Of a DNA stretch of 64,000 nucleotides, positions 52,284 to 60,772 are shown one piece after another. The translations under genes were made by a program, and so were the position numbers. The notes beneath the pieces were generated by a model. It saw only the letters and a list, made by a program, of their open reading frames with translations, searched no databases and was not told the origin of the DNA. The stretch spans positions 744,001 through 808,000 of the forward strand of contig NZ_CP114904.1 in NCBI RefSeq assembly GCF_027497215.1, given 5' to 3'. The stretch comes from Micromonospora sp. WMMD812. GTDB lineage: Bacteria > Actinomycetota > Actinomycetes > Mycobacteriales > Micromonosporaceae. Each line of letters begins with the position of its first letter. Positions within the stretch are counted from its first letter, which is position 1.

Positions 52284-52670
52284 CCGCCGCTCGCGCGAGC
52301 CTTCGCCAGGGGACGCGCGAGCCGGGCGGCGACGAACGCCCTTACAGGCAACGACGGCGCGGCGTCCGGGTTGCTGTCTGACTGTCTCGCCGATCAGCTG
52401 ATCGACCGATCAGTCACCTGACTGCTGCATCAGTCAGCAGATTTGCGCGGATCTCGGCGGTTCGGGCCATGCCGGTCGGGGAGCTTTGCTAGCTTCGTGA
52501 AGCCTTGTCGGGGTTACGGCATAAACACCGCATTGTCGATATATGCCGCGATCATCGCTCCGCCGGATCTCTCGGTGCCGCCTTCCTGGCAGTCGACCCG
52601 AGGTCCGACACGGTGTCGCCACATGGCACGGGTGGTTCGAGCGTGGTCAGCGCAGGAGGTTCGCGTTTCC
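52284..52670 (+). promoter_or_regulatory. Control region upstream of the Pls-type NRPS operon
   Basis: This 387-base gap holds a perfect 12-base palindrome GATCAGCTGATC (52392-52403), a CTGACTG/CAGTCAG stem (52418-52424 with 52431-52437) around a 6-base loop, and repeated GATC-A/C-G words between. Such stacking of dyads over 45 bases fits a regulated promoter. Downstream of these lies an AT-richer stretch (GCATAAACACCGC, GATATATGCCGC) around 52520-52548 that could be a -10 region. No regulator is adjacent. Confidence 0.5.
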
Positions 52671-55600
52671 GTGGAGCAGGTCGGGTACATCGGTGCGTCC
52701 ACACAGCCCCTGCGACCGGAGCGACGTCCGGATGCGGAGGCACGCGTCATCATCGGCTCGCCGATCGTCGATCAGGTGGGCGGGCCGCAGCAAGAGGGCG
52801 GCGGTTCGCGGCCCCGGCGCCTGCACCACGTGTTCGAATCCGCCTGTGACCGCGACCCGTCGGCCATCGCGCTCGAGTGCGGCAACGAGCGGCTGACCTA
52901 CCGAGAGCTGGACGAGCGCGCGAACCAGCTGGCCCACCACCTGCATGCCCTCGGCGTCGCGGGCGGCGCTCGGGTGGCCATCCTGCTCCAGCGTTCGGTC
53001 GACACGTACGTGGCGTTGCTGGGCGTGGGAAAGGCCGGCGCGGCCTTCGTGCCGATCGACCCCGAGTCTCCGGCCGACCGGGTCGCCTACATCGCCGAGG
53101 ACTCGGACGTCGACCTGGTGTTGACCTCGTCGGCACTCGCCGACCGGGTGGGCGGCCAGCGCTCCCTCGTCATCGACGAAAGCGTCGCCGAGCTCGCCAC
53201 GGCACCCGCCGACCGGCCGGTGCTCGGCTTCGACGGCGCCGACGACCCCAGCGCCTACGTGATCTACACCTCCGGATCCAGCGGTCGGCCCAAGGGCGTC
53301 GAGGTCGCGCAGTCGAGCATCTGCAATTTTCTCGACGTGGTGCCCGGCCTGTACGACGTGCGCCCGGGCGACCGGGTCTACCAGGGCATGACGATCGCGT
53401 TCGACTTCGCGATCGAGGAGATCTGGCCGACCTGGTCGGTCGGCGCGACGCTGGTGGCCGGTCCGACCGACTCCCGCCGCCTCGGCGCGGAACTGGCGGA
53501 CTTCCTGGACGAGGCGGGCATCACCGTCTTCTACTGCGTCCCCACCCTGCTTGCCACGATTCCCCGCGATCTGCCCCGGATCCGAAACCTGCTCGTCGGC
53601 GGTGAGGCGTGCCCGGGACAACTCGTCGAACGGTGGAGCCGGCCCGGTCGGCGGATCCTCAACACCTACGGGCCGACCGAGGCCACGGTCACGGCGACCT
53701 GGGGCGAACTGCGCCCCGGGCGGATCGTCACCATCGGACGTCCCCTGCCGACCTACTCGGTGGTGCTGCTGGACGAGCAGCGGCAGCCGGTCGCCGACGG
53801 CGAGGTCGGCGAGATCTGCATCGGCGGTCCGGGGGTGGCGCGCGGCTACGTCGGACGCCCCGAACTGACCGCCGACCGGTTCATCGAGCACCCGTTGGCG
53901 CCGCCCGGCAGCCGGCTCTACCGCACCGGGGACCTGGGCCGGCTCACCGACGACGGCGAGATCGAGTATCTCGGCCGGGCGGACTCCGAGGTCAAGATCC
54001 GTGGGCACCGAGTGGACCTCGGCGAGATCGAGAGCGTGCTGCTGGAGGACGACGGCGTGGCCGAGGCCGTGGCGGCGCTCGTCCCTGTCGCCGACGGCCC
54101 CGACGCCCCCCGTGAGCTGGCGGCCTACCTCGTTCCTCACGACGGCGCGGAGGACGGCTGGGAGGAGCTGAGCGGCCGGCTCTGCCAGACCCTGCAGACT
54201 CGACTGCCCGGCTACATGGTGCCCTCCTTCCTGGACGTCGTCGCCGAACTGCCGACCATGCCCAGCGGAAAGGTCGACCGGAAACGGCTACCCGCGCCGG
54301 TCCGCCGGCTCACCCGCGACACCGGCCCGCTCGTGGCCGCCGAGAGCGAGCTGGAGGAGCGGGTACGCGCGGCGTGGGCGGAAGCGTTCGGCCTCGAACC
54401 CGAAGCGCTCTCGGTCGAGGCAGACTTCTTCACCGACCTCGGGGGACACTCGCTGCTCGCGGCGCGGGTGGTGTCCCTGCTGCGCGCGCGCGAGGTCGGC
54501 GTGAACCCCGCGGTCCGGGACCTGTACGCCCACCCGACCGTCCGCGGCATGGCCGTCCACCTTGGTGCCGCCGACCGGGTCGGCGGGCCGACCGCGCCGC
54601 CGCGACCCGAACCGCTACGGCACCGCAGCCGCCGAATCGCGCTGGCCGGGTTCGGCCAGGGCGCGGTGATCTACCTGCTGTTGCTGGCCGTCACCATTCC
54701 CGTCTCCTACGTCTACACCCGGAACGACGGTTTCGTGTCCGTGCGGGTCCTCGCGGAACTGATGGTCGCGATCCTGCTCAGCTACCTCGGCGTGCGGTGG
54801 GTGCTGCCGGTGCTGCTGGCCCGGCCGTTGGCCGCGGGTATCCGCCCCGGCCGATATCGTCTCTGGGGCCTCACCTACGTCCGGCTCTGGGCATTGAGCA
54901 CGCTGATGACGATCGGCCCGCTGCCCGTGCTCAGCGGCTCTCCGCTGATGGCGACCTACCTGCGCCTGCTCGGCGCCCGGATCGGCGGCCGCACCGTGAT
55001 CGCGACCAGCGCGATCAGCCTCCCGACACTGATCTCCGTCGGGCGGGACACCTCGGTCGGGTACGGCGTCTCGCTGCGCGCGTGGCGGGCGGAGGACGGC
55101 TGGGTCGTCGTCGGACCGATCACCATCGGCCGGGGCGCCTTCGTCGGCGCGAACGCGGTTCTCGAACCGGGCGCCTCCGTCGGGTCGTATGCCGCCGTCG
55201 GCGAGCAGTCCGTCCTGGTGCACGGCGAGGCGGTGCCGGCCGGAGCGCGTTGGGCCGGCTCACCGCCGGCTCCGACCAGCCGACTCACCGACACCGTCGA
55301 ATCCCTGCTCTCCTCCCGCCCGCTGCGTCACGGCTGGCGCCCGCACCACGCCGTCGCCGCCCTGGTCGGCCTGCTCGGCCTGGAAATGGGGGCCATCGCG
55401 ATGGTCCTGCCCAGCGTGGCGCTGGTCTGGTGGGTGCTGTTGACCCGGGGTCTGCTGGCGGGACTCGTCGCGACCATCCCCGCCGGGGTCGTCTACGTCC
55501 TCACCGTCTGCGCGGTGGTCGCCATCGGCAAGCGTCTCGTACTGCCGCGGGCGCCCGTCGGCTTCCACCACCGGGTGCACTCGATGCTCGGCGTGCGCAA

Positions 55601-56756
55601 GTGGATCGTCGACAAGCTGCTCGAGTTCAGCCTGATCTACACCAACTCGCTCTACGCGACCCTCTACACCGGTCCCTGGCTGCGCATGCTCGGCGCCCGT
55701 GTGGGTCCCGGCGCCGAGGTCTCCACCGCCGCGCACCTGGACCCCGACCTGCTCACCCTGGGCCCGGGGAGTTTCGTCGCCGACATGGCCAGCCTCGGCG
55801 CCGCGACGTTCGCCAACGGACGTGTGGCGTTCCTGCCCACCACGGTCGGCAGTCGGGCGTTCGTCGGCAACGCCGCGTTCGTACCGGCCGGCACGGTGCT
55901 GGGCGACGGTTGCCTGCTCGGCGTCAGCACGCTGCCGCCCGACAAGCAGGTCCCGGAGGGCACCTCCTGGTTGGGCTCACCGGCGATCCACCTGCCAGTG
56001 CGCCAGAGCAGCGGATCCTTCTCGGAGGAGCAGACCTTCCGCCCGCCGCGCAGGGTGGTGGCTCATCGGTTGTTCGTCGAATTCTTCCGTGCCACCCTGC
56101 CCGCATCGGTGCTCGGCGTCAGCTTCTACCTCTACCTCCTGGCGCTGTCCTGGCTCGCCAACGGCCGAGGCCTGCTCGTGCCGGCGCTGGTGTCGCCCTT
56201 CGTCGCGATCGCGTCGAGCGTCGGAGTGATCCTCTTCTGCGCGGCGACCAAGCGGAACATCATCGGCAAGTACCGACCCCGGGTCGAGCCGCTGTGGAGC
56301 CCGTTCGTCCGGCGCACCGAGTTCGTCACGGGGCTCTTCGAGGCCGCGGCGGTCCCCGTCGGCGTGGGGCTGCTCGTCGGCACGCCGTTCCTGCCGCCGG
56401 TACTGCGCTGGTTCGGAGTCCGGGTCGGCAGACGCACCTGGATCGGGACCACCTATCTCACCGAGTTCGACCTGGTCGAGATCGGTGACGACGCGACCGT
56501 CGGTGCCGAGGTGTCGTTGCAGACCCATCTGTTCGAGGACCGGGTGATGAAGATGTCCGTCGTCACCGTCGGCGCCGGCGCCACCATCGGAACCCGCGCG
56601 ATCGTGCTCTACGACGCCGTTGTCGGCCACGACGTCTTCCTGGGGTCGCTGTCGCTGCTGATGAAGGGCGAGCACCTCACGCCCGGGACCCGATGGCGCG
56701 GCATCCCCGCCCAAGGGGTGCTCACCCGCGGCCCCGTCGACCAACGGGCGGCCTGA
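52671..56756 (+). CDS. Pls-family membrane NRPS (epsilon-poly-lysine-synthetase-like)
   Basis: A 1361-residue single-module synthetase. GTG 52671 lies 11 bases after AGGAGG; the frame is open to 52443 but without a ribosome site. Residues about 45-545 are an adenylation domain (YTSGSSGRPKGVEV, AFDFAIEEIWPTW with D245, TGDLGR). A carrier domain follows with GGHSLL at Ser 594. From about residue 660 the chain is membrane-bound, with about six helices separating three soluble hexapeptide-repeat (LbH acyltransferase-like) blocks (GPITIGRGAFVGANAVLEPG; FVGNAAFVPAG; AGATIGTRAIVLYDAVV). This is the layout of epsilon-poly-lysine and related isopeptide-polymer synthetases, which condense an activated diamino acid without classical C domains. 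Confidence 0.9.
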   Translation: MEQVGYIGASTQPLRPERRPDAEARVIIGSPIVDQVGGPQQEGGGSRPRRLHHVFESACDRDPSAIALECGNERLTYRELDERANQLAHHLHALGVAGGARVAILLQRSVDTYVALLGVGKAGAAFVPIDPESPADRVAYIAEDSDVDLVLTSSALADRVGGQRSLVIDESVAELATAPADRPVLGFDGADDPSAYVIYTSGSSGRPKGVEVAQSSICNFLDVVPGLYDVRPGDRVYQGMTIAFDFAIEEIWPTWSVGATLVAGPTDSRRLGAELADFLDEAGITVFYCVPTLLATIPRDLPRIRNLLVGGEACPGQLVERWSRPGRRILNTYGPTEATVTATWGELRPGRIVTIGRPLPTYSVVLLDEQRQPVADGEVGEICIGGPGVARGYVGRPELTADRFIEHPLAPPGSRLYRTGDLGRLTDDGEIEYLGRADSEVKIRGHRVDLGEIESVLLEDDGVAEAVAALVPVADGPDAPRELAAYLVPHDGAEDGWEELSGRLCQTLQTRLPGYMVPSFLDVVAELPTMPSGKVDRKRLPAPVRRLTRDTGPLVAAESELEERVRAAWAEAFGLEPEALSVEADFFTDLGGHSLLAARVVSLLRAREVGVNPAVRDLYAHPTVRGMAVHLGAADRVGGPTAPPRPEPLRHRSRRIALAGFGQGAVIYLLLLAVTIPVSYVYTRNDGFVSVRVLAELMVAILLSYLGVRWVLPVLLARPLAAGIRPGRYRLWGLTYVRLWALSTLMTIGPLPVLSGSPLMATYLRLLGARIGGRTVIATSAISLPTLISVGRDTSVGYGVSLRAWRAEDGWVVVGPITIGRGAFVGANAVLEPGASVGSYAAVGEQSVLVHGEAVPAGARWAGSPPAPTSRLTDTVESLLSSRPLRHGWRPHHAVAALVGLLGLEMGAIAMVLPSVALVWWVLLTRGLLAGLVATIPAGVVYVLTVCAVVAIGKRLVLPRAPVGFHHRVHSMLGVRKWIVDKLLEFSLIYTNSLYATLYTGPWLRMLGARVGPGAEVSTAAHLDPDLLTLGPGSFVADMASLGAATFANGRVAFLPTTVGSRAFVGNAAFVPAGTVLGDGCLLGVSTLPPDKQVPEGTSWLGSPAIHLPVRQSSGSFSEEQTFRPPRRVVAHRLFVEFFRATLPASVLGVSFYLYLLALSWLANGRGLLVPALVSPFVAIASSVGVILFCAATKRNIIGKYRPRVEPLWSPFVRRTEFVTGLFEAAAVPVGVGLLVGTPFLPPVLRWFGVRVGRRTWIGTTYLTEFDLVEIGDDATVGAEVSLQTHLFEDRVMKMSVVTVGAGATIGTRAIVLYDAVVGHDVFLGSLSLLMKGEHLTPGTRWRGIPAQGVLTRGPVDQRAA

Positions 56757-56814
56757 CGCCGCGTGATCGCAACCGATTCAGTCATTCTCCATCCACGAGA
56801 GGAACAACCGCTCA

Positions 56815-57624
56815 ATGAACAAGGCACTCCTGGTCTCCGACGCCGCCTACTTCCGGGTCGACTACGAAATCAACCCGTACATGCACACCGATGTGCAGCC
56901 GGATCACGCGGCCGCCGTCGTCGAGCATCTGAACATCGTCGTCGCGCACCGGGCGGCGGGCCGCCACATCGAGTACCTGCCGTCGGCGCCGGAGTGCCCG
57001 GACATGGTGTTCACCGCGAACGCCGCGCTGGTGCGGGGTGACCGGGCGGTTCTGGGCGCACCGCCCCCGGAGCGCAAGGCCGAGCTGCCCTATTTCCAGG
57101 ACTGGCTGATCAACCACGACTTCGACGTCGTGGAGGCGCCGTACCCGTTCAGCGGTCAGGGCGACGCTCTGGCCTGCGGCGACCTGCTGCTGGCCGGCCA
57201 CGGCCAGCGGACCGACCGGAGGATGCACCAGGTTCTCGCGCGAGCGTTGGACTACGAGGTGGTACCACTGCAGACGGTGAGCCCCCGGTGGTACGACCTC
57301 GACCTGGCGGTAGCCGTCGTCGAGCCCGGGCGGGTACTCGCCTACTGCCCGGAGGCCCTCGATCAGTCGAGCCGCCGACGGCTGCGCGGACTCGGCTTGG
57401 ACCTGATCGAGGTCTCCGTCGAGGAGGCGTCCCGCTTCGCGCTCAACCTGATCAGCGACGGCGCCACCGTGACCATGACCAAGGGAGCGCCGCGGCTGGC
57501 CGCCGCGCTGCGCGTCCGCGGCCTGCAGGTCGTCGAACTCGACACGACCGAACTGGCCAAGGGCGGGGGTGGGGTGCGCTGCACCGCGCTGACCCTCGAC
57601 AACCCACTCCCGACGAGATCGTGA
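56815..57624 (+). CDS. Amidinotransferase / dimethylarginine-dimethylaminohydrolase-fold enzyme
   Basis: A 269-residue protein. ATG 56815 follows GAGAGGAACAACCGCTCA. It has the five-fold alpha-beta propeller text CPDMVFTANAALV, PFSGQGDAL and the nucleophile segment GGGGVRCTALTLDNP with the catalytic Cys. This is the core of DDAH, arginine deiminase and arginine amidinotransferase enzymes; the N-terminal VSDAAYFRVDYEINPYM is typical of the bacterial branch that acts on arginine-like substrates. Likely reactions are citrulline formation or amidino transfer to an amine. Its stop overlaps the BPL_N start (TGATG), so it is in the NRPS operon. Confidence 0.85.
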   Translation: MNKALLVSDAAYFRVDYEINPYMHTDVQPDHAAAVVEHLNIVVAHRAAGRHIEYLPSAPECPDMVFTANAALVRGDRAVLGAPPPERKAELPYFQDWLINHDFDVVEAPYPFSGQGDALACGDLLLAGHGQRTDRRMHQVLARALDYEVVPLQTVSPRWYDLDLAVAVVEPGRVLAYCPEALDQSSRRRLRGLGLDLIEVSVEEASRFALNLISDGATVTMTKGAPRLAAALRVRGLQVVELDTTELAKGGGGVRCTALTLDNPLPTRS

Positions 57625-58382
57625 TGGCGTCGGGACCATTCGGTCGCCTCCTCGCCGCCGGCGGGAGGGCACTCGCCGGCCACGGCCTGACGGTCCGTTC
57701 ACCGCTGCCCGAGCGAACCGAACCACCGTTGGCGCTGGTCTACCGAGGACCGGCGACACTGCCCGGCTGCCCGGAGGCGGTCGCGGCGCTGCTCAAGTCC
57801 AGCCGGTGGGGCTTCGACGTGCGGTACGTCGGGCCGGACGAGGACGTGCCGCTGAGCCATCGGGCGCTCGCCGGCGCCGCGCTCTACGCCCAGCCCGGTG
57901 GCGGCACCCTCCGGCGGGGCTACCGGCACCTGAAGGGCCACCGCGACGAGATCCGGCAGTTCGTCAAGTCCGGCGGGCGGTACCTGGGGATCTGCCTGGG
58001 TGGCTACCTCGCCGGGGCCACCCCCGGCTTCGCCCTCCTGCCCGGAGACACCAACCAGTACATCGCCTCGTTCGCCGCCAGCGTCGACTCGGCGAAGAAC
58101 ACGGTCGTCCAGGTCTCCTGGCGCGGCCGGCGGCGGACGCTCTTCTTCCAGGACGGCCCGCACTTCCTGCTGCAGCCGAACGCCGAAGCCGACATCATCG
58201 CGACGTACCCGAACGGGACGATCGCGGCGATGGTCACCCGCCTTGGTGCGGGCCGGGTCGGCGTCGTCGGCCCCCACCCCGAAGCCACCGACGACTGGTA
58301 CATCGACGCCGGGCTGCGCGCCGCCGATCGGCTCGGCGCGGACCTCGGCCACGACCTGATTGACACCGTGATGAGGCCATGA
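57624..58382 (+). CDS. BPL_N (class-I glutamine-amidotransferase-like) protein 1
   Basis: A 252-residue protein. ATG 57624 overlaps the upstream stop; GTG 57621 is also possible. The family's opening PLALVYRGPA and the nucleophile elbow GICLGGYLAG with Cys are present, along with a His/Glu pair in GPHPEA. This matches the biotin-protein-ligase N-terminal domain, a class-I glutamine-amidotransferase fold. A helix before residue 35 is weakly hydrophobic. The nucleophile supports an amidase, ligase or acyl-transfer role on the peptide product. Its stop overlaps the acyltransferase start (ATGA). Confidence 0.85.
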   Translation: MASGPFGRLLAAGGRALAGHGLTVRSPLPERTEPPLALVYRGPATLPGCPEAVAALLKSSRWGFDVRYVGPDEDVPLSHRALAGAALYAQPGGGTLRRGYRHLKGHRDEIRQFVKSGGRYLGICLGGYLAGATPGFALLPGDTNQYIASFAASVDSAKNTVVQVSWRGRRRTLFFQDGPHFLLQPNAEADIIATYPNGTIAAMVTRLGAGRVGVVGPHPEATDDWYIDAGLRAADRLGADLGHDLIDTVMRP

Positions 58383-59785
58383 CCCAGACAGCGAACCTCA
58401 CGTGGGAGGATCTGGACCGAGCGGCCGAGGCGAACAGGCGCGCCGCCGTGGCCCGGGGCGCCGAAGGCGCACCCCCGACGCGGGACCTGCCGGTCGGGCG
58501 AAGCCGGCTGCTCGGCGTGGACGCCGCCCGCGGCGTCGCGTTGATCGGCATGATCGCCGTGCACTCGTTGCCCGAGTCCGACGCTGCGGGGCGGCCCACC
58601 TGGTGGTTCACGGCCTTCGGCGGGCGGGCGTCCGCCCTGTTCGCGGTGCTGGCCGGGCTCGGTATCGCGTTCTTGACCGACCGTCGCCGGGTCCGACCGG
58701 CTGCCGGCTCGGGCCTGGTGGCGGCGCTGGTCGTCCGGGCGCTGGCCATCGGCGCGATCGGGTTGGCGCTGGGCTACACCGACGGGTCGCTGGCGTCGGT
58801 GATCCTGCCCTACTACGCGGTGATGTTCGTGCTGGCGATCCCGTTGGTGTTCCTGCCGACCTGGCTGGTGGCGTTCACCGGCGTGGTCGTGGCCGCCGGT
58901 GCGTCCGCCCTCCTACACGTCCTGCCGCAGCTGCCGGAACCGAGCTACGACAACGCGGCCTTCGCGCAGCTCGTCGACGATCCGGTCCCGCTGCTCACCG
59001 AACTGTCGCTCACGGGGGAGTTTCCGGCCGTGACGTGGCTGGCGTACCTGTGCGCCGGGCTGGTCATCGGGCGGCTGACGCTGACCAGGAGGAGAGTCCT
59101 CGTCGGGCTGCTGACCGCCGGAATCGCGCTCGCCGCCGCGGCGCCGGTGGCGTCCTGGGTCCTGCTCGACCGCTTCGGGGGTGCGGAGCAGATCGCCCTC
59201 ACCCAGGCGAAGAGCGGACTCGACGCCGCGGGGACAGCCGAGCTCCTCACCCTCGGCGGGGACGGCACCACGCCCACCTCGACCTGGTGGTGGCTCGCCG
59301 TCGACGCGCCGCACACCGGCACGCCGCTCGACCTGCTCGGCACGACCGGGAGCGCGATCGCCCTGATCGCCGTCATGCTGCTCGCCGGCCGCGTGGCACG
59401 GAGCCTTCCGCGGCGGGTGATCTCCGTGCTGCTGGTGCCCCTGGCGGCGGCCGGCGGCATGACCCTGACGCTCTACACCGCGCACATCGTGTTCATCAAC
59501 TCGGACCTCGACTCCTCCACGCCGGTGACCGGGTTCCTCGTACAGGTCGTGGTCTTCGTGGTGGTCGCGGCCGCGTGGTGGGCCACCGCTGGCCGGGGCC
59601 CACTGGAAGGGCTCGTGACGGCGCTGTCCCGCGGCGCTCGTCGGCTGGCGACCTGGAACGGCCGGCGCAGCCGCGGCCGAGTGGGGATGTCGATGTATTC
59701 GCCGGGTGGCCCGCGCGGGCGAACGCCCGGTCGAGCCGTCACCGACGGGATGACGCCGCGACCGAGCAGGAGGGGAGCGACATGA
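58379..59785 (+). CDS. Membrane acyltransferase (HGSNAT_cat / DUF1624-DUF418-like)
   Basis: A 468-residue integral membrane protein starting by ATGA overlap with the BPL_N gene. After a soluble 40-residue head, LLGVDAARGVALIGMIAVHSLP is the diagnostic first helix of the heparan-alpha-glucosaminide N-acetyltransferase-like family, with the reactive His following, and LTLYTAHIVFINS is the last family segment. About ten helices. It probably uses acyl-CoA (or another acyl donor) on the membrane to modify an extracellular or membrane-bound product. The C-terminus is basic, Arg/Gly/Pro-rich and disordered. Confidence 0.8.
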   Translation: MTQTANLTWEDLDRAAEANRRAAVARGAEGAPPTRDLPVGRSRLLGVDAARGVALIGMIAVHSLPESDAAGRPTWWFTAFGGRASALFAVLAGLGIAFLTDRRRVRPAAGSGLVAALVVRALAIGAIGLALGYTDGSLASVILPYYAVMFVLAIPLVFLPTWLVAFTGVVVAAGASALLHVLPQLPEPSYDNAAFAQLVDDPVPLLTELSLTGEFPAVTWLAYLCAGLVIGRLTLTRRRVLVGLLTAGIALAAAAPVASWVLLDRFGGAEQIALTQAKSGLDAAGTAELLTLGGDGTTPTSTWWWLAVDAPHTGTPLDLLGTTGSAIALIAVMLLAGRVARSLPRRVISVLLVPLAAAGGMTLTLYTAHIVFINSDLDSSTPVTGFLVQVVVFVVVAAAWWATAGRGPLEGLVTALSRGARRLATWNGRRSRGRVGMSMYSPGGPRGRTPGRAVTDGMTPRPSRRGAT

Positions 59786-59808
59786 GGCAGGGCAGGTGCA
59801 CGTGCTGA
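59782..59808 (+). other. Eight-codon upstream ORF in the BPL_N2 start region
   Basis: ATG AGG CAG GGC AGG TGC ACG TGC TGA (MRQGRCTC) starts 7 bases after AGGAGGGGAG and overlaps the GTG start of the second BPL_N gene in another frame. The best ribosome site therefore serves a tiny peptide, suggesting translational coupling or a frame error near the gene's 5' end. Confidence 0.4.
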
Positions 59809-60599
59809 TCGGCGACGCGCCCCGCATCCGTCGGCGGCGACTCCTCGTGGGCGTCGGCGCCGCCGGCACCCTGGCCGCCCTCGGGTGGGCCGGGGTGTCG
59901 GCGGTCTCCGGGGACGGGCCGTTGGCGCTGGTGTACCGGGGTCCGGCCGCCGGCTCCGGCTGCGCCGAAGCGGTGGCCGCACTCCTGCGCAGCTCGCCGG
60001 CCGGGTTCCGCACCGCGTACTGCGGCCCGGACGAGGACCGGCAGATATCGCGCAGCACGCTGGCCGAAGCGGCCCTCTACGCCCAGCCCGGAGGCGGCGA
60101 GGTCAACCGCGCCTGGCGGAGGATGCGGGACCACGCCGTGGACATCCGCGGGTTCGTCCACGACGGCGGGCACTACCTCGGCTTCTGCCTGGGGGCGTAC
60201 CTCGCCGCCGCCGACCCGGGCTTCGGGCTGATCGACGGAAAGGTGAACCAGTACATCAGCACGGACGGGGCGGACGTCGACAGCACCGACGACACGACGA
60301 TCGAGGTGCGGTGGCGTGGCCGCTCCCGGCACATGTACTTCCAGGACGGTCCGACCTTCGCGCTGCGACCCGGGGTGCCGGGCGACGTGCTCGCCACCTA
60401 TGACAACGGCGCGGCCGCCGCCGTCGTCACGACCTTCGGTGCCGGGCGGGTCGGCCTGGTCGGGCCGCACCCCGAAGCCGACCGCTCCTGGTACGCCGAC
60501 ATGGGACTGACCAACCCGGACGGCATCCGGTTCGATCTGGGCCACGACCTGGTGCAGAGCACGCTGGACCGGCACGGGGCGGCGCACCTAGAGACCTGA
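59796..60599 (+). CDS. BPL_N (class-I glutamine-amidotransferase-like) protein 2
   Basis: A 267-residue paralogue of the protein at 57624 (PLALVYRGPA, AALYAQPGGG and NQYI are shared). The nucleophile text is GFCLGAYLAA (Cys kept) and GPHPEA is present. Unlike its relative it starts with an Arg-rich PRIRRRRLLVGVGAAG followed by a hydrophobic helix, so it is likely exported or anchored, possibly via a Tat-like signal. GTG 59796 or 59802 is the start; the strong AGGAGGGGAG lies before an 8-codon ORF at 59782 instead. It closes the operon. Confidence 0.82.
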   Translation: MHVLIGDAPRIRRRRLLVGVGAAGTLAALGWAGVSAVSGDGPLALVYRGPAAGSGCAEAVAALLRSSPAGFRTAYCGPDEDRQISRSTLAEAALYAQPGGGEVNRAWRRMRDHAVDIRGFVHDGGHYLGFCLGAYLAAADPGFGLIDGKVNQYISTDGADVDSTDDTTIEVRWRGRSRHMYFQDGPTFALRPGVPGDVLATYDNGAAAAVVTTFGAGRVGLVGPHPEADRSWYADMGLTNPDGIRFDLGHDLVQSTLDRHGAAHLET

Positions 60600-60623
60600 C
60601 CCGGTGCCCCGGACTCCGGCTGG

Positions 60624-60659
60624 CTGGCCAGGCCCGGTCGGCCGAACGGGCCTGGCCAG
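60624..60659 (+). terminator. Hairpin terminator of the NRPS operon
   Basis: Perfect 13-base arms CTGGCCAGGCCCG (60624-60636) and CGGGCCTGGCCAG (60647-60659) with a 10-base loop, 24 bases past the last operon stop. Confidence 0.8.
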
Positions 60660-60772
60660 TTCGCCCTCGGACGGCTCACCGACGGGAACCCGCCGGCCCC
60701 GACCGGTGTCCTGACTGTGGCGGGCACGAGTCGATCGACCGGCCGGCGCGACGTCTATCCGGAGGGCGTGAG

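Follow-up and report, generated by a model that had tools for sequence, protein, structure and literature searches.

Gene organization of the locus

The window, meaning the whole 64,000-nucleotide stretch that was analysed, lies in a soil actinomycete's genome of 7.13 Mb on a single contig, and the nearest named related loci are from Micromonospora. Five plus-strand genes, A to E, form one unit. A (52671..56756, +) encodes a Pls/PosA-type single-module synthetase of 1361 aa; B (56815..57624, +) a member of the DDAH/arginine-dihydrolase family; C (57624..58382, +) a leaderless, apparently cytosolic BPL_N protein (PF09825); D (58379..59785, +) a membrane acyltransferase-like protein; and E (59796..60599, +) a second BPL_N protein (PF09825) with a twin-arginine-like leader that points to export. 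The initial annotation had proposed this five-gene unit, and all five genes are present. It had placed the start at 52284, a position just behind the gene upstream of A; A itself starts at GTG 52671.

The start of A has AGGAGG in front, and the motif at this position is AGGAGG in four and AGGGGG in two of six aligned loci (window included). The proposed overlaps are found in the sequence, TGATG at B/C and ATGA at C/D. The bounding palindromes and hairpin are also there, in a less perfect form than first described. Two imperfect palindromes 5' of A (52379..52437), a possible operator, are 74% (52379-52416) and 90% (52418-52437) complementary and are weakly or only partly conserved in five relatives; the hairpin behind E (60624..60659), a possible terminator, is nearly rather than fully perfect, since it pairs at 17/18 positions.

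The synthetase and its pocket

Synthetase A matches TIGR02353 at 554 bits (cut-off 423.1) over positions 13-695 of 695, and also AMP-binding and PP-binding families, in agreement with the earlier assignment to the Pls-type membrane synthetases. Its adenylation domain (52833..54290, +) is followed by a carrier domain (54357..54560, +; PF00550, residues 563-630), whose Ser594 is kept in 27/27 aligned rows (window included), and by a complete terminal membrane polymerisation domain with hexapeptide blocks (54666..56711, +; TIGR02353, Hexapep PF00132 and hydrophobic segments). The pocket carries Asp at position 1 and Glu at position 3, the rule for the Pls/PosA family in PMC10522769.

The ten pocket residues of each locus were obtained by aligning its motifs with those of A; L050, one more match in the pocket listing, was left out as not a Pls. 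Apart from the window, the pocket is DFE..GT in 49 loci, DAES.. in 31, DFE..S in 13, DGES.. in 4, DIWQST.. in 5 and DSECYGGVTK in 1. Among the 49 DFE..GT loci, 33 are identical to the window's DFEYLGTVTK and 5 read DFECLGTVTK. Lysine enzymes have Ala at position 2, Dap and Dab enzymes Phe and PosA Met, and the beta-lysine enzyme has the code DGESISVVNK (PMC10522769). The DAES loci are therefore named lysine type and the DGES loci beta-lysine type, and the readings of Ala at position 2 in the former and DGES.. in the latter match that paper. The DFE..S loci are named Dab type because 10/13 have a nearby class-III aminotransferase, like the clusters of PMC8117764 and PMC8225329. The window pocket joins the DFE of the Dab type to the GTV seen in PosA (ornithine) and the lysine type; as read by alignment, it matches neither the lysine nor the beta-lysine nor the Dab type.

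The DSECYGGVTK of L180 is the code of a Bdellovibrionales homologue with modest arginine activity (PMC10522769). In L106, L110, L111 and L119-L121, Pls terminal domains lie in frames of ~880-1110 residues, and a separate DIWQST adenylation domain occurs in 5/6 of them, a split or rearranged architecture.

In a tree of 67 synthetases, which is quick and carries long-branch warnings, 45 rows (window and L155 included) fall in one clade with support 100; L143 and L156 adjoin it and the Dab-type synthetases lie outside. Neither this tree nor the clade table includes L036 and L138, in which A was found in pieces. The synthetases with a DFE..GT pocket do not strictly form a single clade, since L176 falls outside the linked clade, among Dab-type synthetases.

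Conservation and linkage of the gene set

Loci were found by searches with E, with B, with the Pls terminal domain, with A and with a Dab-type synthetase; those from the last three count as picked by synthetase alone. Neighbours were examined for 40 Pls places in the terminal-domain listing and 40 in the Dab-type-synthetase listing. The duplicates L064, L065, L066 and L082 were dropped, as were loci below L031, which overlap as short ones.

Across the 49 DFE..GT loci of the full sample, C is present in 45, D in 42, B in 24, E in 22 and an M1 peptidase in 18, while a Dab-type (class-III) aminotransferase occurs in 0/49. The B and E counts are inflated here, because the E and B searches favour loci that hold these genes. 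Among the 27 DFE..GT loci picked by synthetase alone, C occurs in 23, D in 20, B in 4, E in 5 and an M1 peptidase in 17. The 54 synthetase-picked loci with other pockets have BPL_N once (L178, a distant match), D and B never and an M1 peptidase 29 times. By type, the 31 lysine-type loci hold BPL_N in 1, D and B in none and an M1 peptidase in 28; the 13 Dab-type loci hold BPL_N in 1, D and B in none and an M1 peptidase in 1.

The partners are retained while gene order varies. Orders seen are A-B-C-D-E, A-C-D-E, A-C-B-D, A-C-M1-D and A-B-C-M1-D, and A-D-C followed by a PPTase gene is found in another class. L143, L156 and L176 are exceptions: their synthetases have a DFEY pocket and stand without any of the partners. 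L155 reads A-B-D-M1 with no C. The fewest changes on the tree are two each for C, D and E and six each for B and M1. The genes directly outside A-E have no tblastn match in the related loci listed. Since the linked set recurs in many genomes, the co-occurrence that the initial annotation had asked to be checked, and the flanking genes have no such match, A-E is more than a chance arrangement: all five genes are genuine and form one set. Literature searches, mostly outside subscription papers, found no paper describing the A-E set, as had been supposed. The locus thus represents a subfamily of Pls clusters in which a synthetase of known kind, but with an uncharacterised pocket, is accompanied by new conserved partners.

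The BPL_N proteins C and E

Both BPL_N genes keep the expected Cys. The residues Cys124, His218 and Glu220 (numbered as in C) are present in 98/98 BPL_N proteins (window included). A hydrophobic leader is found in 0/46 C-type proteins and in 52/52 E-type and free-standing ones, of which 50 have a twin arginine and 24 a lipobox-like Cys; these 52 exported proteins are one group in the family tree (support 97). The BPL_N of L178, which scores equally with C and E, is counted as C-type in the leader and residue counts, and the C of L036, in two pieces, was left out of the family tree and the 98-protein count.

The predicted model of C (mean pLDDT 88.2, pTM 0.84) was compared with other structures by Foldseek. 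The glutaminase subunits Pdx2 and HisH come first and gamma-glutamyl peptidase 1 at rank 16; the matches are moderate, with TM-scores of 0.50-0.58 by query length over the first 22 rows. By this model, C has a class-I glutamine amidotransferase-like fold, and its sequence carries the Cys-His-Glu set. It shares this fold and a conserved set with Pdx2, HisH and gamma-glutamyl peptidase 1; the differences are the low identity (10-18%), the free-standing state of the BPL_N proteins and the export of one of the two copies.

BPL_N proteins also occur in other settings. In L037-L063, exported BPL_N lies apart from any C-linked synthetase in Streptomyces, Nocardia, Amycolatopsis and others, and exported copies are found away from any Pls; L178 has one distant BPL_N beside a Dab-type locus. 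Exported copies without a Pls and the distant copy of L178 both count against the reading preferred below. Several of the L037-L063 genes adjoin a histidine kinase and a response regulator, a gene pair present in 10/33 E-search loci, one of these being a cluster locus. In Dactylosporangium, a 440-residue protein (P0012) is a single-frame fusion of a C-type with an E-type BPL_N.

The genes D and B

The earlier call of a membrane acyltransferase holds for D, which matches HGSNAT_cat (PF07786) at 34.0 bits (cut-off 22). R51, H62, H312 and H369 are among the positions at least 95% kept in 24 rows (window included). With this match and its conserved membrane His and Arg, D is by sequence an HGSNAT-type transmembrane acyltransferase; a sequence search against solved structures gave no match for D.

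The DDAH/amidinotransferase-fold gene of the initial annotation is B, which belongs to the DDAH/arginine dihydrolase families (PF19420; PDB 6lrf, E=7e-34; model mean pLDDT 83.5). Like arginine dihydrolase AgrE/ArgZ and DDAH, B has the sequence family, the nucleophile Cys (Cys256), a conserved Asn and two Asp; unlike them, it has Ser113 and Asp161 where they conserve Glu and His. In B and 120 listed homologues (P0012, the C-E fusion, left out of this count), Ser stands for Glu in 120/121, Asp for His in 121/121 and Cys is kept in 120/121, whereas AgrE and five arginine-type paralogues, one from the window's own genome, keep Glu and His. The catalytic positions of the superfamily include His and Cys (PMC11659421). 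B therefore lacks the conserved His and Glu that accompany the catalytic Cys in DDAH and arginine dihydrolase. The Glu position replaced by Ser is a catalytic one of the superfamily too. Judged by these residues, B is not a normal arginine enzyme.

B is missing from 25/49 DFE..GT loci and from 23/27 of those picked by synthetase alone. At 1e-60, no B was found in 150 genomes of a genus taken to be Streptomyces, a search that had no positive control; B is rarer in Streptomyces rather than absent, since the protein search lists homologues there at 73-77%. In L070 (8424-10129), B and E are adjacent with no synthetase, and this B has Ser for the nucleophile Cys. A housekeeping DDAH/arginine-dihydrolase paralogue in the same genome as the window (L130, contig 1: 5717500-5723000) adjoins a class-III-aminotransferase-like frame, with TIGR00709 matches at 5718694-5719671.

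Exported BPL_N and the M1 peptidase

The PldII of S. albulus is an aminopeptidase that lies outside the membrane; its gene is coupled to pls, and the producer relies on it to protect itself (PMC9223678; also PMC8117764). The epsilon-poly-lysine pls-pldII operon (Streptomyces albulus) resembles the present locus in its Pls architecture and in an adjoining exported polymer-handling hydrolase. It differs in having Ala at pocket position 2 and an M1 peptidase, where the window has Phe and an exported BPL_N; the sampled lysine-type loci have no B, no D and BPL_N in only 1/31, whereas the window has B, C and D. With Phe at position 2 and no M1 peptidase match in the window, the locus is not a lysine-type (pls-pldII) cluster.

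Over the 49 DFE..GT loci, 22 have E only, 18 an M1 peptidase only, 9 neither and 0 both. The M1 peptidases beside four loci, including the lysine-type locus of the same genome, were confirmed with Pfam. This distribution is a pattern rather than a significant test, because E changes only twice on the tree, giving two independent pairs. The lysine-type locus (L095, contig 1: 6949500-6968500) holds a second Pls with pocket DAESIGTVVK and an adjoining M1 peptidase, so the organism may make two polymers.

Monomer and product

The monomer of A is probably ornithine or 2,4-diaminobutyrate, and the pocket does not decide between them; ornithine as the monomer does not need B. PosA, the delta-poly-ornithine synthetase of Acinetobacter baumannii, belongs to the same family and has Glu, Thr and a hydroxyl residue at matching pocket places, and differs in having Met at position 2 (code DMEHNGTVSK, PMC10522769). 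The poly-Dab clusters (pldA with dat and ask; pddA-pddD) share Phe at position 2 and, in the tree, occupy the closest branches outside the clade; they differ in carrying a Dab aminotransferase and an aspartate kinase, and pddA also a racemase (PMC8117764, PMC8225329). No Dab aminotransferase match was found in the window, and the locus is thus not such a cluster.

In the window's own genome, the best match to TIGR00709, the model used for Dab supply, reaches 219.3 bits (cut-off 401.6) and the best to TIGR03945, one Dap enzyme, 254.9 (cut-off 349.95). Among 47 genomes searched, TIGR00709 is above cut-off in 12/40 host genomes and 6/7 Dab-type controls. In some of the 12 positive hosts the match may be ectoine EctB.

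It is unlikely that the product is ordinary poly-2,4-diaminobutyrate and that the extra genes only decorate it. The DFE shared with Dab-type synthetases and the position of these in the tree, 10/13 of them with a nearby class-III aminotransferase, favour this product, but pocket positions 6 and 7 differ, the class-III Dab aminotransferase is missing from all 49 DFE..GT loci, and 28/40 host genomes, the window's own included, have no TIGR00709 match above cut-off, even if 12/40 do. The initial annotation had B set an arginine-derived monomer, ornithine or citrulline. B is indeed nearest to arginine dihydrolase and DDAH, and the pocket has hydroxyl residues where PosA holds the ornithine amine (PMC10522769). 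The exchange of Glu in 120/121 and of His in 121/121, and the absence of B from 25/49 loci of the same pocket type, make this origin of the monomer very improbable. Monomer making as the main role of B was rejected: it is unsupported, because Glu and His are exchanged and most synthetase-picked loci have no B.

Proposed mechanism and alternatives

We infer the activities and product as follows, on the basis of gene linkage, protein topology, residue conservation and the distribution of E and M1. Consistent with its family, A would make a cationic diamino-acid homopolymer with isopeptide bonds, probably an antibiotic-like chain. C would be a cytosolic Cys-His-Glu amide hydrolase acting on the nascent or escaped chain, for release, length control or self-protection, and E, its exported paralogue, would trim or degrade the polymer outside, in place of a PldII-type M1 peptidase. 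D may carry an acyl group across the membrane onto chain amines. B would be a pentein protein turned to a new use, perhaps still able to bind a cationic ligand, with normal guanidine hydrolysis probably lost. That C and E are hydrolases handling the polymer on two sides of the membrane, with E replacing PldII, is our leading reading, held tentatively at a little under an even chance.

Several observations weaken it. The E/M1 pattern amounts to about two independent changes of E, which puts significance out of reach; there are lone synthetases, L155 without C and nine loci without E and M1; L176 lies outside the linked clade; the Foldseek matches of C are moderate; and B (4/27) and E (5/27) are rarer in loci picked by synthetase alone. 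C might instead be a free-standing Cys enzyme, similar to a thioesterase, that releases the chain from A or sets its length, and E might have an unrelated role outside. C is the closest partner of A (45/49 loci), its lack of a leader puts it on the carrier-domain side of the membrane, and the release of the related poly-Dap chain is left open in PMC4668381. Lysine-type (BPL_N 1/31), beta-lysine-type and nearly all Dab-type loci nevertheless manage without BPL_N, as do three DFE..GT synthetases without any partner, and a dedicated release factor seems rather improbable. The fold and Cys-His-Glu set of C, as in class-I glutamine amidotransferases, would also suit glutaminases that supply ammonia for amidation of the chain. 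Neither glutamine nor a partner synthetase would be expected where E is exported to, and the operon appears to have no such synthetase; amidation by C and E is accordingly quite unlikely.

Meaning for Pls-type polymers and the BPL_N family

Pls-type polymers serve as food preservatives, and their chain release, length limit and producer tolerance are only partly known. In the present subfamily, a synthetase whose pocket is new goes together with a matched pair of hydrolase-like proteins, one inside and one outside the membrane. To judge from the cluster, the polymer may carry acyl groups, and B would be an arginine enzyme re-purposed with its key residues exchanged. In a broader and more doubtful extension of the two-sided hydrolase reading, actinobacterial BPL_N proteins would make up a new family of enzymes that hydrolyse isopeptide polymers. 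The exported form would then replace PldII without being homologous to it, the cytosolic form would be dedicated to one Pls subfamily, whose monomer is uncharacterised, and exported copies that stand alone would protect other actinobacteria against such polymers. If the two-sided hydrolase reading holds, the poorly known BPL_N family would get its first job; the subfamily gives bacterial BPL_N proteins a role that can be tested.
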